64,000 nucleotides of DNA from the NCBI RefSeq assembly GCF_013282215.1, contig NZ_CP048103.1:496001-560000 (forward strand), read 5' to 3'. Below are positions 12,710-58,806 of this stretch, piece by piece; within the stretch, counting starts at the first letter, position 1, and every line of letters begins with the position of its first letter. The stretch is from Kroppenstedtia eburnea. GTDB lineage: Bacteria > Bacillota > Bacilli > Thermoactinomycetales > DSM-45169. The notes below the pieces were generated by a model. It was not told the DNA's origin and did no database searches. It saw only the letters and a program-made list of their open reading frames with translations. The translations under genes were made by a program, and so were the position numbers.

Positions 12710-13552
12710 TCAGCTGAAAACTTCCCGCAGGAAACGGGTGGTCACCTCGATGGCTTCATTCAGCTGTGGAGTGGGCCCTTGAAAAGGGTGAACGGCGTTA
12801 AAGGTGTGTCCCGCGCCGTGAATGAGGTGGAGAACGCCACGGGGAGCGGCTGTTTGGAGGTCCCGGGCCGCTTGGACCGGAACCGCGGCATCTTCGTCCC
12901 CCTGCAGGATCAGCATCGGCTTCGCGAAGCCGGGCAAGCGGCCGAGAAGGTTGAACCGTTTCCGGTGGAGCTCGATATCGTCCAATACCTCCCGGTCGAT
13001 AGGCATCTCCTGACCGGTCCGGGCGTTGAGAATGGTGGCCCGCCCTTTGTTGCGGATCTCCTGTTTCAGTTCATCGGAGAAGAAGTCCACGCGGGAAACA
13101 CTGTTCCAAAGGACCACCCCACGGACGGCGTCTGGGTGGTCCAGGGCAAACAGCAGGCTGTTGGCCCCGCCCCGGCTGTGACCGAGGAGCGCCACCCGCT
13201 GGGTGTCGAGGGATTCGGCACCGGGCAAGGCTCCATGGGTCAATTGCTGAAAGAGAAACCGCAGATCCTCCTGCTCCCGGCTGAAGGTGTTGTGGGCAAA
13301 CTTCTCCAGCTCTGCAAAGGTTTCAGGGTTCTCCCCCACCCCGTTCATGGAGAAGTTGAAGGTGATTGCGGCAAAGCCCGACCCGGCCAGACTGCGGGCG
13401 GTATGGGGGAAGAATCCCCACTCTTTGAAGCCTTTGAAACCATGACAAATGATGACGACAGGGTGGGGGCCAGTGCCTTCGGGCAGGTGCAGCTCTCCCC
13501 GGATCTTCCGGTCTTCCTTGTTCAAGTTCAAAATAAAAGTTTTGCTGTCCAT
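12710..13552 (-). CDS. alpha/beta hydrolase (dienelactone hydrolase/esterase-like)
   Basis: 280 residues with a classic catalytic triad: oxyanion region ICHGFKGFKEWG near residue 36, nucleophile elbow GHSRGG (~124), acid in LQGDEDAAVP (~218) and His in GAGHTFNAVHPF (~247). Probably a cytoplasmic esterase; substrate unknown. The first in-frame ATG directly follows an in-frame TGA, so the start is fixed, yet no SD is at the normal distance. The nearest SD (AGGGAGGAAAGG) is ~35 bases upstream, beyond a 9-bp hairpin GGTGCGGAC/GTCCGCACC. Translation may be coupled to an 18-codon frame starting at the GTG after that SD. Confidence 0.88.
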   Translation of the reverse strand: MDSKTFILNLNKEDRKIRGELHLPEGTGPHPVVIICHGFKGFKEWGFFPHTARSLAGSGFAAITFNFSMNGVGENPETFAELEKFAHNTFSREQEDLRFLFQQLTHGALPGAESLDTQRVALLGHSRGGANSLLFALDHPDAVRGVVLWNSVSRVDFFSDELKQEIRNKGRATILNARTGQEMPIDREVLDDIELHRKRFNLLGRLPGFAKPMLILQGDEDAAVPVQAARDLQTAAPRGVLHLIHGAGHTFNAVHPFQGPTPQLNEAIEVTTRFLREVFS

Positions 13553-13616
13553 TTTTCAGGCGGTGCGGACGAAGCGGTCCGCACCTTTCCTCCCTTCGCT
13601 GGTCTGTTACCATGAT

Positions 13617-13974
13617 CCCAGGGCTGTTGATTAACCCGAAAATGGGCGGTGGAAGGGAGTCGTGTGCTGCCAAAGCGACCTTTGCACCACAGGCACTACA
13701 GTCCAGATGGGCTGAAGCCCTGGGATGAAGGTTGCCATCCTACCCAGCGGAGAATCTGGAGAGAGGGCGTTTAGGGGCAACATTCTTCCTTGTGTTGCTT
13801 CCGTAAGGCTTTGCCCCTGCCCGAAGGTCAGATTTGGAGCGGCCAGTCATTACTTCCTTGCCGGATGGCATAGCGCGACCGGGGAGGAACGACCCCAGGC
13901 GCGACTTGTGCCCTATGGGTGCAACGGTCGCGTGGTAGAACACGACCTCCTCACTCAAAATATAGTTAATCGAC
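13617..13974 (+). mobile_element. structured repeat element, copy A (HEARO/omega-RNA-like or MITE)
   Basis: About 358 bp, nearly identical to the reverse complement of 57716-58022. The ends form an imperfect inverted repeat (GTTGATTAACCC... against a complement of ...ATATAGTTAATCGAC). Inside, CCCAGGGCT (13617-13625) is the exact complement of AGCCCTGGG (13715-13723), and GGGGCAA pairs with TTGCCCC around 13774-13816, which points to a folded RNA. This copy carries an extra ~55 bp (13869-13929) not present in copy B. A 108-residue open frame through it is not a protein gene. Confidence 0.7.
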
Positions 13975-14022
13975 ACGCTTGCCATAATCCCTTCTTTGCG
14001 GGTCCTTGGCATCCCTTTTTAA

Positions 14023-14052
14023 TTGAACCGGTTCAGGGTTTCAGTATATAAT
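14023..14052 (+). promoter_or_regulatory. SigA-type promoter of the cobalamin operon
   Basis: TTGAAC, 18-base spacer, TATAAT, placed just before the riboswitch so that transcription would start near 14059. Confidence 0.7.
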
Positions 14053-14059
14053 AGGGTCA

Positions 14060-14245
14060 CAAGTCGATAGGATGAAAAGGTCTCCCCGTCCCCTGACGGG
14101 CGGGGAGTGAAAAGGGAAGCCGGTGAGATTCCGGCGCGGTCCCGCCACTGTGTTTGGGGAGCGAAGCCGCAGGGTGCCACTGTTCTTTACAGAACGGGAA
14201 GGCGCGGCCGAGTGAGGATCCATAAGCCAGGAGACCTGCCTTTTC
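14060..14245 (+). promoter_or_regulatory. cobalamin (adenosylcobalamin) riboswitch
   Basis: Contains the B12 box AGCCAGGAGACCTGCC at 14225-14240 and the upstream conserved core GCCGGTGAGATTCCGG...GGTCCCGCCACTGT with GAAGCCGCAGGGTGCCACTG. It controls the B12 uptake operon that follows; ligand binding should favour the terminator at 14326-14364. Confidence 0.93.
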
Positions 14246-14325
14246 ATCTGGGAAACTTGCGATCTCCTTCGAGGCTGAGGAGAGCAACCACCGGATCCCT
14301 GGGTCGCTTTTTTGATTCGGTCAGG

Positions 14326-55529: not shown

Positions 55530-57680
55530 TCAGTGGATTAATTGACTGGCTTTGGCACTTTCCATCAGCTTGGAAGTCTTTCGGTTGATCGGTTCTTTCA
55601 AAGCGAGTCCGATCAGAAGGGCCAGAGCAGCGAATACACCCAATATCGACAGGTCTTTCCATACAATCTCCCAGATGGCTCCCCCGACTGCTTCCCGCAT
55701 CATGCTGATGGCATAAGTGAAAGGAAGGAACGGGTGGATGGCCTGAAAGAAGAGTGGCATGACCTGCACGGGGAAAGTTCCGCCGGAAGCTGAAAGTTGC
55801 AGGACAAGCAACACAATGCTGAGCGCTTTTCCGACGTTCCCGAACACAGAGACCAGTGTGTAGACGATCAACATAGAAACGGCACTGATCAGCAGACCGA
55901 ACAGGACAAACCACAGTGGATCCGAGCAATAGGTGTGTAAAACAAAGAGGTTGCCCACTGTGACGATGACCGATTGCATAAGTGCAATCGTCAAGAAGGT
56001 CAAATACCGTCCAAAATAGACCTGGTAACTTTTATAAACTCCGTGGGGATCATGAACTTCCGTTGTCAGCAGAGACACCAGCAGGAGCGTGCCGACCCAT
56101 AATGAAAGTACCGTATAGAAGGGGGACATGGCTGAACCGTAATTGGGAATCGGATACAGCTTGACTTCTCTCAGTAACACCGGTTGTGCAAAAAAATCGC
56201 TCTCCTTGTGAAAATCATTCTTTAACAGATCGATCACTTCACCCAAGTCCGTTTCCGCTTCCGCTTTTCGGATCTCATCGGCCAGGTGATGCACCTTTGC
56301 CTCGATCTGAGGCAAGTGTTCCTTTATGGTCCGGAGTTCTTTCTTGCCGACGGCGATTCCTTTGGTGGCGTCACGGATGATTTTGTTCACATCGGGGAGG
56401 GTGCGGTCTGTTTCATCCAAAATGGACTGGACGCGGTCGAGGGAAGAGTCGGCTTGATCCAGGCCCTTTCGTATTTTGGGTTGAAATTCCCCCTCCAAGC
56501 GATTCATCACATCTTGGGTCCGTTGCTGTGTGATCCGGGAAGCATCGTTCCAGCGTCGGAATAAATCTTTCCCCGGTGCTTCGCCGTTGCTGACAGTGCT
56601 CTCGATCCGGTCCAGGAGCATCAGTTGCTGTTGAAAGCCCTCTCTGATCCTCTGCAACCGTTTAATTTCCGGGTCAAGGATGGGTTGATCCGCCAGTCGG
56701 TTCACCCTCTCCAACAGTTGGATGATGTGGTCCGTTGCAGTCAGACCCGCAGTCAGACGGCCGGTGGCCTCTGACACCGCACTTTTCACATCAGTCGGGT
56801 CCATGTCGGTTTTTTGCAGTCGGGAAGTCAACTGCTGCATGGACACAGCAGTTTGGTGAACCGTTTCGATCCGATCCTTCACCCGGGGCAGAAGGGTTTC
56901 GGTGGATCCTCGGAGATGGTCCAAAAACCGATGCAGACGGTGGGTAAACTCCTTGCCGTCTCGGGTGATTCTGGCCGCCCGGGCGAGGCCTCTTTGAGCT
57001 TTTCCCGTGATCTCAGCCGCTTTGTTCACATCTTCAAGGGCGATCCGGACGGCCCGGTTCACAGTGGGAAAGCTCTTCTCCAGTCTGAAAACCAATTCTT
57101 CCAACGCTTTGACAGTGGGCCATTCTCTTTCAAGCTCAATCCCCAGTTCGTTAAAGGTTTTAAACATCGCACCGGTCGCTGTTTTTACAAAGTTGTCACT
57201 CACTTGTTGCACGATCCCGGTGGCCCCTTTTTCAGTCATCTTGGGGGTGATCGCATTGATCTTTTCATTCACATAATAGACGATTTCCGGCTTTACCGGT
57301 TCCCCTGTGATCACAGTCGCTATCTTTTTCGAAAAATCTTCGGGTATCGTGATGCTGGCATAAACATCTCCCCGCCGGACCCCTTCATAGGCCTTTTTTT
57401 GGTTGATGAAGATCCATCCCAGTTTTTTGTTCTTCTTTAATGAGCGGACCACTTCGTCCCCGAGCCGGATTTCGTGTCCGCGCACTGTGGTTCCCTTGTC
57501 CAGGTTGGTGACGGCGACGGGGACACCCTGTGTGTTTCCATAGGGATCCCACGAGGCCTTGATGTTAAACCATGCATACAAGGAAGGTAACAGGATCAAT
57601 CCTCCGATAATGACAGCTGCCACCCAATGTCTCGTTATATTTTTCAGGTCCCGGGCATAGATCGACAGTATGTTTTTCAT
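55530..57680 (-). CDS. yhgE: YhgE/Pip-family membrane protein
   Basis: 716 residues. N-terminal membrane helix (WVAAVIIGGLILLPSLYAWFN) and the YhgE signature IKASWDPYGNTQGVPVAVTNLDKGT; a long extracellular helical region (~150-480) rich in coiled-coil heptads; and a C-terminal ABC-2-like block of five to six helices (~520-700, e.g. VGTLLLVSLLTTEVH, FLTIALMQSVIVTVGNLFVLH). The lactococcal homologue Pip is a phage receptor, and other relatives form part of type VII secretion-like systems. CAGGAG precedes ATG 57680. No regulator adjacent. Confidence 0.9.
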   Translation of the reverse strand: MKNILSIYARDLKNITRHWVAAVIIGGLILLPSLYAWFNIKASWDPYGNTQGVPVAVTNLDKGTTVRGHEIRLGDEVVRSLKKNKKLGWIFINQKKAYEGVRRGDVYASITIPEDFSKKIATVITGEPVKPEIVYYVNEKINAITPKMTEKGATGIVQQVSDNFVKTATGAMFKTFNELGIELEREWPTVKALEELVFRLEKSFPTVNRAVRIALEDVNKAAEITGKAQRGLARAARITRDGKEFTHRLHRFLDHLRGSTETLLPRVKDRIETVHQTAVSMQQLTSRLQKTDMDPTDVKSAVSEATGRLTAGLTATDHIIQLLERVNRLADQPILDPEIKRLQRIREGFQQQLMLLDRIESTVSNGEAPGKDLFRRWNDASRITQQRTQDVMNRLEGEFQPKIRKGLDQADSSLDRVQSILDETDRTLPDVNKIIRDATKGIAVGKKELRTIKEHLPQIEAKVHHLADEIRKAEAETDLGEVIDLLKNDFHKESDFFAQPVLLREVKLYPIPNYGSAMSPFYTVLSLWVGTLLLVSLLTTEVHDPHGVYKSYQVYFGRYLTFLTIALMQSVIVTVGNLFVLHTYCSDPLWFVLFGLLISAVSMLIVYTLVSVFGNVGKALSIVLLVLQLSASGGTFPVQVMPLFFQAIHPFLPFTYAISMMREAVGGAIWEIVWKDLSILGVFAALALLIGLALKEPINRKTSKLMESAKASQLIH

Positions 57681-57715
57681 ATGTATCTCCTGATCCAATG
57701 GTCAAAGGCAGGAGT

Positions 57716-58022
57716 GTTGATCAGCCATATTTTGGGTGGGGAGATCGTGTTCTACCACGCTCCGGTTGCCATCCAGCAAGGAAGTAATGGCTGGCCGCTC
57801 CGAATCTTCCGATCGGGCTGGGGCAAAGCCTTACGGAAGCAACACAGGGAAGAATGTTGCCCCTAAACGCCCTCTCTCCAGATTCTCCGCTGGGTAGGAT
57901 GGCAACCTTCATCCCAGGGCTTCAGCCCATCTGGACTGTAGTGCCTGTGGTGCAAAGGTCGCTTTGGCAGCACACGACTCCCTTCCACCGCCCATTTTCG
58001 GGTTAATCAACAGCCCTGGGTG
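57716..58022 (-). mobile_element. structured repeat element, copy B (HEARO/omega-RNA-like or MITE)
   Basis: About 307 bp, the reverse complement of copy A at 13617-13974 with only scattered differences. On the minus strand it starts CCCAGGGCTGTTGATTAACC and ends ATATGGCTGATCAAC. The 9-base complement CCCAGGGCT/AGCCCTGGG and the GGGGCAA/TTGCCCC helix are retained. It lies between the divergent yhgE and tpx genes, reading towards yhgE, and lacks the ~55-bp insert of copy A. Confidence 0.7.
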
Positions 58023-58157
58023 TCAAAGGTTATTATCCTGGGTTTTTCGGAAAAACATACAGGTGGGAGAGGGAAGAATGGATGACCTCTATTTTTGGAA
58101 AAAGTATGATAAGATAACTGTGGGAACACCACTACATAACCGGGGAGGAAACTTGCG

Positions 58158-58676
58158 ATGGCAGAAGAACGGCAAGGTGCAATCACCTTCAAAGGAAACC
58201 CTGTGACACTCCTGGGGCCGGAATTGAAACCGGGGATGACCGCTCCCGATTTCTCCGCGCTGGCCAATGACCTGAGTCCGGTCACCCTTGGAGACAGCAA
58301 CGGATTTGTTCGCATCTTCAGCGTGGTTCCGTCCTTGGACACCGGGGTGTGCGATGCCCAGACCCGTCGCTTCAACGAAGAGGCTGTCAATCTGGGAGAC
58401 CGGGTGAAAGTGATCACAGTCAGTGTCGATCTGCCTTTTGCCCAGCAGCGTTGGTGTGGAGCGGCCGGGATCGACCGGGTGCAAACCGTTTCCGATCACC
58501 GGGATCTCTCCTTTGGTACCGCCTACGGTGTGGCGATCAAAGAACTCCGTCTGTTGGCCCGGGCGGTGTTTGTCGTTGACGCGTCTGACAAAGTGGTTCA
58601 TGTGGAGTATGTATCCGAAGCCACCCAGCATCCGGATTACGAAGCTGCGGTGGAAGCAGCCAAGAAAGCTCTTTGA
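58158..58676 (+). CDS. tpx: thiol peroxidase
   Basis: 172 residues. Atypical 2-Cys peroxiredoxin: peroxidatic Cys ~65 in VVPSLDTGVCDAQTRRF and resolving Cys ~100 in LPFAQQRWCGAAG, with the catalytic Thr and Arg of the Tpx family present. It reduces organic peroxides using thioredoxin in the cytoplasm. GGGGAGGAAACTTGCG precedes the ATG. Single-gene unit with its own terminator. Confidence 0.95.
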   Translation: MAEERQGAITFKGNPVTLLGPELKPGMTAPDFSALANDLSPVTLGDSNGFVRIFSVVPSLDTGVCDAQTRRFNEEAVNLGDRVKVITVSVDLPFAQQRWCGAAGIDRVQTVSDHRDLSFGTAYGVAIKELRLLARAVFVVDASDKVVHVEYVSEATQHPDYEAAVEAAKKAL

Positions 58677-58695
58677 GCGAATGAAGCTCAGACGG

Positions 58696-58720
58696 CCCGG
58701 GATTTTTCCCGGGTTTTGTT
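58696..58720 (+). terminator. intrinsic terminator
   Basis: CCCGGG/CCCGGG arms around six bases, then TTTTGTTT. Confidence 0.75.
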
Positions 58721-58806
58721 TCTTTCACCCTGCCGGGTGAACAACTTGATCTTCCATTACCCGGGGCGGGAGTGACTCCGCCGATCGGGAAAGGCAGGTG
58801 CAACTG

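Follow-up and report, generated by a model that had tools for sequence, protein, structure and literature searches.

Two nearly identical repeats that lie in opposite orientation about 44 kb apart in the window, that is, in the whole 64,000-nucleotide stretch of Kroppenstedtia eburnea DNA analyzed here (contig NZ_CP048103.1, positions 496,001 to 560,000), are firmly placed by their sequence features among the non-autonomous DNA transposons (MITEs), and comparison of related sequences firmly supports a fold in their core that is conserved across many genera of Bacilli. The joint best explanation, to which we give a probability of roughly 0.8, is a MITE that is mobilized by an IS4-family transposase and carries a core selected as RNA. 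A preliminary description of this DNA had proposed a structured RNA and had named a non-autonomous transposable element as the alternative; both ideas appear to be right, since the conserved covarying fold lies inside the transposable element, with its MITE ends and 9-bp target duplications, and the two are the same thing. That the core is an RNA and has a function is what we infer from the comparisons below.

Repeat family, modular build, and IS4-type ends

The two window copies and the parts of copy 1 are listed in Table 1. As stated in the preliminary description, they are near-identical inverted copies: they agree at 96% across the first 254 nt (BLAST), a match far beyond chance, and belong to a family that gave 85 BLAST pieces in the genome (3,564,999 bases in one contig) with copy 1 as the query, along with 31 covariance-model matches. 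The boundaries proposed at first were roughly right, and the terminal repeats now place the ends as in Table 1. Copy 2 is shorter because one 55-nt D unit near the right end is missing. Promoter-like sites were sought in 13500-14100; none lies inside copy 1, and the single site found, a sigma-70-like one at 14023-14052, lies between copy 1 and a cobalamin riboswitch (141 bits; 14061-14257, plus strand) that is located 3' of copy 1, so that the MITE is upstream of the promoter. Around copy 2, at least 2.46 kb (window positions 56267-58725) agrees with K. guangzhouensis (L057, L031) at 99.3% identity, compared with 89.4% in the next 620 bp beyond this tract; the surroundings of copy 2 are probably a recent transfer tract.

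Table 1. Positions in the window of the two MITE copies and of the parts of copy 1
Feature	Coordinates	Strand	Remarks
MITE copy 1	13619..13981	+	363 bp; conserved fold on + strand; ends from 30-copy alignment and terminal-repeat pattern
Left target-site duplication, copy 1 (CCATGATCC)	13610..13618	.	9 bp, 1 mismatch to right duplication
Right target-site duplication, copy 1 (CCATAATCC)	13982..13990	.	
Left terminal inverted repeat CAGGGCTGTTGATTAACC	13619..13636	+	copy alignment and pattern search
Outer stem P1, 5' arm (GGTGGAAGGGAGTCGTGT)	13648..13665	+	partner 13940-13954; consensus fold of 16 copies of this genome
Outer stem P1, 3' arm	13940..13954	+	same consensus fold
Optional module B, ~50 nt	13679..13731	+	in 11 of 30 copies of this genome; tandem array of three in L036
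Conserved core (module C), with helices P2 to P5 and the three motifs below	13732..13868	+	
Conserved motif AGCGGAG	13746..13752	+	
Conserved motif GGAGCGG	13836..13842	+	
Conserved motif CTTCCTTGC	13853..13861	+	
Optional module D, 55 nt	13869..13923	+	tandem in relatives (L034, G009:C12)
MITE copy 2	57709..58018	-	310 bp; modules A-B-C-E, no D unit

When 30 copies from this genome were aligned with their flanks, sharp ends were evident, CAGGGCTGTTGATTAACC at the left and, read inward, CAGGCGTGTTGATTAGCC at the right. The terminal inverted repeats noted earlier are borne out by the pattern CAGGSNTGTTGATTARCC, which at up to two mismatches occurs at 89 sites in the genome versus 2 for the reversed control pattern. 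The 30 copies are modular in build, with end A, an optional module B (~50 nt), the core C (~140 nt), an optional module D (55 nt), and end E. Module D stands before E in L001, L002, and L011 and within A in L010 and L012, and two copies (L028 and L030) are of the form A-D-E, with the core absent. The tandem B modules of the relative L036 have a period near 53. Tandem D units that repeat every 55 bp are also seen in relatives, six at G009:C12:1-333 and four at L034:1641-1858, both at contig ends. Very short elements that keep both terminal repeats but hardly any core, or none, are found at L076:2448-2514 (67 bp), L067:5413-5506 (94 bp), and L077:2458-2557 (100 bp).

The modular build also bears on long-range pairing. 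The pairing proposed at first between CCCAGGGCT and AGCCCTGGG is not general, as AGCCCTGGG belongs to the optional module B; in relatives this stretch appears as a small local hairpin, weakly supported by a double change in one of four pairs. A long-range CAGGGCT/AGCCCTG helix was dropped because it is limited to copies with module B. No conserved protein frame was found across copies by clustering of ORFs of at least 90 aa, in line with the first reading of the window.

By our own gene calls, 25 of the 30 copies do not overlap predicted genes; four (L009, L017, L021, and L029) overlap by 11-20 nt, and at L024 one predicted ORF, its start perhaps called too far upstream, runs ~70 nt into the element. 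The orientations of neighboring genes, tallied as simple counts for 29 of the 30 copies, were -- in nine, ++ in eight, -+ in seven, and +- in five. A cis-regulatory role was considered and set aside: there is no evident orientation preference, and no common neighbor was noticed, except for L015/L108 and generic or orthologous genes, in a search for recurring genes that clustered ORFs (≥90 aa) around 86 loci (not all of them distinct places) and viewed the 15 largest clusters.

Direct repeats outside paired terminal repeats were scored against 60 controls with mismatched flanks, the highest of which reached 7.9. Target duplications scoring above all 60 controls flank 20 of the 30 copies, copy 1 among them; 17 are exactly 9 bp long, two are 8 bp, and one is 10 bp. 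The other 10 copies are without a duplication above the controls, and they include copy 2, where it is degenerate (11 bp with 3 mismatches) and under control level. In another genome of the genus (G001), the flanks of copy L013 are separated by 33 bp that contain no element, although the exact empty site has diverged.

In this genome, no intact insertion sequence (IS) bounded by such ends was detected by a pattern search, in 20 stretches around unpaired or short-paired ends, or by a remnant search; two truncated remnants have a similar terminal repeat (one mismatch in L064 and four in L059), after which an ORF begins. With the remnant sequence as a guide, we found a complete IS element of 1,234 bp (L081:1138-2371), with both terminal repeats, in a genome of another genus of the same family (G009). 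Its transposase is of the IS4 family (match to NF033592, E 4.4e-61; PF01609) and is 43-44% identical to IS5377-like transposases from Geobacillus plasmids; in the YREK signature of the IS4 family, L081 has a lysine where L085 has a glutamate. No target duplication was seen by eye at L081. The element and the window copies have 18-28 bp in common at their ends, and the interior gave only one 15-bp match, at chance level. The MITE is without a transposase and has only its ends in common with IS4/IS5377-like elements. The preliminary description had counted a transposase-encoding relative with the same ends among the findings that would speak against a structured RNA; such a relative exists as far as the ends go, but its interior is not shared. 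The IS remnant had no blastn match in plasmid records, and two versions of the core had none in collections of phages and plasmids.

Several hallmarks expected of MITEs appear in this family, namely, terminal repeats on many dispersed copies, duplications of fixed length, no transposase of their own, and ends in common with an IS; the terminal repeats, the duplications, and the ends common with L081 make MITEs of an IS4-type element the best reading of the window repeats. Elements of the ISLre2 type (UPF0236) generate 9-bp target duplications, and ISLre2 was considered as the mobilizer. Ten genomes of the family gave no match, but its absence is not demonstrated because control genomes gave none either; the IS4 element then settled the point.

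Covariation and distribution of the core

To judge from Rfam scans and a literature search, the core of ~140 nt with its optional modules of 50-55 nt is an undescribed fold. With Rfam 15, nothing within the element was matched in the window (gathering thresholds), at 7 loci (E up to 1), or at 20 distant loci (E up to 3), and the matches listed were to the cobalamin riboswitch, tRNA, and, weakly and below cut-off, eukaryotic families; no description of the core was found in Rfam 15 or in a literature search that reached few subscription journals. These scans speak against the best guess of the preliminary description, HEARO/omega-RNA elements linked to IscB nucleases, taken here as an orphan omega-RNA that would act as the guide of a nuclease of the IscB or TnpB type. 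The element is compact, structured, of similar size, and present in many copies, and HEARO RNAs, as outlined for RF02033 (PMC9755519), are likewise structured RNAs tied to mobile DNA. RF02033 gave no match at any threshold tried, however, no nuclease gene was noticed beside copies, no recurring nuclease-like ORF was noticed on informal inspection of the 15 largest ORF clusters from the 86 loci, and the terminal repeats with 9-bp or hairpin duplications are traits of DDE transposons. We regard this reading as very improbable.

Covariation among homologs, which had been suggested as a check, was assessed in two separate alignments. In the earlier family-level consensus, 8 of 33 pairs showed double changes. 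For the wider comparison, 38 diverse cores were kept from 63 model matches (alignment A4), with same-place repeats and divergent rows such as L110, L111, L129, and L136 left out; they were aligned with MAFFT without structure, the 27-pair structure was drawn from the earlier family consensus, and the same 38 cores served to build the refined covariance model R2. An earlier alignment (A2) held 16 of the cores then at hand, and the module alignments A5 and A6 comprised 16 and 11 chosen rows. Both tested structures were derived from sequences in the alignments.

In the 38 cores, 79.6% of the cells were paired, compared with 60.5 ± 0.9% in shuffled alignments (0 of 500 as high) and 33-47% when the structure was slid; 207 cells had changed on both sides, versus 72 after shuffling, and the covariation score was 0.534 versus 0.211. 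Two measures were weaker: doubly changed pairs numbered 23 of 27, barely over the shuffled mean of 19.7 (23 was reached in 9 of 500), and 69 pair types were seen versus 62.8 (11 of 500). Helix P3 was 95% paired, with double changes in all six pairs. The helix GGGGCAA/TTGCCCC, which had been picked out from the window by eye, is real and corresponds to P5, with double changes in 4 of 8 pairs. The arms of the outer stem P1 are complementary, and they exceed the 95th percentile of mismatched arms at 17 of 36 loci; since it is only at these loci that they do so, we do not claim P1 as a covarying stem.

The distant set comprised 20 loci in 15 genomes (19 loci in family f145 and one in f148), for which RNAalifold yielded the same architecture, with 20 of 31 pairs doubly changed. 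Here 96.6% of the cells were paired versus 76.0% in shuffled alignments (0 of 500) and 41-50% in slid ones, a control that favors this structure because the structure was derived from the same alignment. There were 129 double-change cells versus 41 after shuffling, with a score of 0.573 versus 0.183; the number of pair types (38 versus 36.2; 149 of 500) was not above shuffled. The covarying helices thus exceed their controls in both alignments, with double changes far above the shuffled and slid expectations, even if some of the shuffle measures are weak. Three motifs, AGCGGAG, GGAGCGG, and CTTCCTTGC, are also largely conserved; they were picked by eye for their conservation, and in the copies of this genome their columns differ in 7 of 643 cells, compared with 225 of 3,366 in the other core cells.

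With the narrow model R1, the core was present in 24 of 42 genomes of the order, namely, in 10 of 10 from the same family, in 3 of 3 and 11 of 23 from two other families, and in 0 of 6 from three more, a patchy distribution within which several genomes carry at least tens of copies, the counts being capped at 70. R2 detected the core in 66 of 398 genomes of the class Bacilli, representing 29 of 146 genera, with no more than 7 matches scored in any one genome. In phylum-wide samples, R2 matched 2 of 398 genomes (the K. eburnea genome and one weak partial match), and R1 matched 1 of 299, the K. eburnea genome only.

Deep motif conservation and compensatory changes would also be expected of a repeated host regulatory RNA or RNA gene family, riboswitch- or 6S-like. 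One position might be read in this way: L015 (G000:C1:1427610-1427869) and L108 (G016:C1:965468-965625), which belong to two families, have the same two genes as neighbors and are close to a terminator; the shared neighbors could hint at an old fixed position. L015 itself, however, has IS4-type ends and a perfect 9-bp duplication, and so we read L015 and L108 as separate insertions. The tens of copies with transposon ends, the patchy presence in the order, and the lack of an evident preference in gene orientation likewise speak against a host RNA, and we consider it improbable.

Core-bearing elements with other ends

At eight loci outside the genus, the core-bearing element is flanked by a direct repeat of 16-29 bp that contains a terminator-like hairpin (L103, L105, L162, L163, L164, L166, L167, and L176; hairpins recognized by eye). 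The ends of L163, L164, and L167, with duplications of 29, 27, and 26 bp, are 0-2 mismatches from CAGnCTGnnGACAAAGT, and those of the other five are less alike. Genome G518 holds IS1182-family transposase genes bounded by ends like CAGnCTGnnGACAAAGT (2 and 0 mismatches), and in two of the three IS1182 copies that were read (L194 and L205) the whole terminator hairpin is present on both sides, the repeat of the third (L182) being unclear; an IS1182 remnant (L187), with one mismatch at each end, is found in G550, the genome that holds L162 to L164. We therefore count L163, L164, and L167 as IS1182-type carriers, with ends and a hairpin duplication like those of L194 and L205. IS1272, a member of the IS1182 family, is described as inserting into terminator hairpins with partial deletion of the hairpin and no target duplication (PMC4923244); by comparison with that description, it is the whole hairpin that is duplicated at L194, L205, and the core carriers. 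No duplication above controls was found at 14 of the 20 distant loci, and a third kind of end occurs in two genomes of one genus (L093; L094 and L116). As the core is found in elements with IS4-type and with IS1182-type ends, a single structured module appears to accompany at least two families of transposase.

In G036 and G039, two types of core, distinguished by eye, occur in divergent pairs with type 1 on the minus and type 2 on the plus strand (L147, L148, L150, L151, L152, L153, and L155); the spacing is 130-315 bp in six of the seven and ~750 bp in L148. An eighth pair (L149) consists of two type-2 cores 1.1 kb apart, and all eight pairs, from the 8 of 12 stretches that were read, run minus-then-plus.

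RNA or DNA as the target of selection

The evidence that selection sees an RNA rather than DNA hairpins is mixed and is suggestive only. GU pairs outnumber AC mismatches in three alignments (40:18 and 32:12 in overlapping sets, and 56:34); among the copies of this genome the ratios were 33:25 and 135:122, and in the widest set 85:71, none of them significant. The cells counted are not independent. Given these mixed results, the strand test is not used as proof of selection on RNA. The better fold is that of the plus strand (z of -5.10, versus -3.84 for the minus strand), and the D hairpin keeps its wobble pairs, a U-G and a G-U, each in 15 of 16 sequences.

The same data can be turned toward a fold that matters only as DNA, in a single-stranded or cruciform form needed for transposition or replication, with no RNA function. 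The outer stem continues into the terminal repeats, making the whole element one long imperfect palindrome; the IS1182-like relatives are located at hairpins, as would suit the insertion habit outlined for IS1272 (PMC4923244); no promoter was found inside copy 1; the GU excess falls short of significance in three data sets; and the minus strand, too, folds well. A plain palindrome, on the other hand, needs neither conserved unpaired motifs nor asymmetric internal loops, and it would not lead one to expect more GU than AC in three alignments or wobble pairs kept in the D hairpin. We hold this DNA-only reading to be unlikely, though it is the one among the alternatives that deserves the most weight.

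How selection would act is suggested by the distribution of variants among the copies of this genome, in which the 23 motif columns were compared with 72 columns of the core outside the motifs and outside helices P2, P3, and P5 (L028 and L030, which lack the core, were excluded). The motifs show no depletion of singletons (7 in their 23 columns versus 29 in the other 72; P = 0.65), so that individual insertions may be drifting, whereas shared variants number 0 in the motif columns and 25 in the others. Because the difference lies in shared variants and not clearly in singletons, we read it as a constraint on spreading copies rather than on each insertion. Drift of the copies, undepleted singletons, and GU and AC counts that do not differ significantly within the genome are also what a neutral MITE would show, its fold being the fossil of an ancestral palindrome under no selection; the conserved motifs and the compensatory double changes far over shuffled and slid controls in two separate alignments make this hardly credible.

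A MITE with a core selected as RNA could work as follows. An IS4-family transposase, IS5377-like by similarity, would bind the terminal repeats in trans and insert the element at mostly intergenic sites, with a stagger of 9 bp. The core would be transcribed by read-through from neighboring genes or from another promoter, and its RNA might bind either the transposition machinery or a factor of the host and so improve the survival or the spread of the carrier, with selection acting mainly on copies that go on to spread. The most likely single role would then be that of an RNA that binds protein and renders insertions tolerable or assists mobilization. A broader proposal, which we advance tentatively and which is itself doubtful, is that the core functions as an RNA, either binding protein or acting as a catalyst, and is a parasite or helper of transposons; mini-elements belonging to two or more unrelated transposase families (IS4 and IS1182) would have taken it up, and selection would have kept it for making its carrier spread more or be better tolerated.

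Several structured mobile repeats offer parallels. BOX elements of Streptococcus pneumoniae are outlined as end modules with a variable number of boxB units, predicted RNA stem-loops, and terminal repeats like those of a resident IS (PMC3049150); by this description, and with no common origin claimed, boxA-boxB(n)-boxC resembles the A-[B]-C-[D]-E order of the MITE with its tandem B or D, whereas the present core, unlike the streptococcal BOX as there summarized, occurs in many genera of Bacilli, covaries, has conserved motifs, and is found with two kinds of ends. Among the repeats bcr1 to bcr18, described for the Bacillus cereus group, bcr1-3 are MITE-like and intergenic, bcr10 and bcr18 have conserved secondary structure, and about half of the copies are reported as transcribed (PMC3446304); the likeness to them is one of description, not of sequence or ends. 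The BrickBuilt MITE of Porphyromonas gingivalis, with tandem 23-nt units between leader and tail modules, is another MITE with a tandem repeat, for which the abstract describes promoters rather than RNA covariation (PMC4596501). By analogy, the family may be akin to small mobile repeats with structure, of the BOX or bcr kind, while the core itself is undescribed.

The recurrence of the fold in related bacteria, where it is apparently moved by two kinds of transposon, suggests that it may be useful to its carriers. The usual view of bacterial MITEs is that they are the decaying debris of insertion sequences. If elements with unlike ends have a deeply conserved, covarying, RNA-like core in common, a selected RNA would be present on some MITEs, and this would offer a direct way to ask what an RNA does for a transposon without coding. 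The core is also a candidate RNA family that comes with a seed alignment and is unmatched in Rfam 15.
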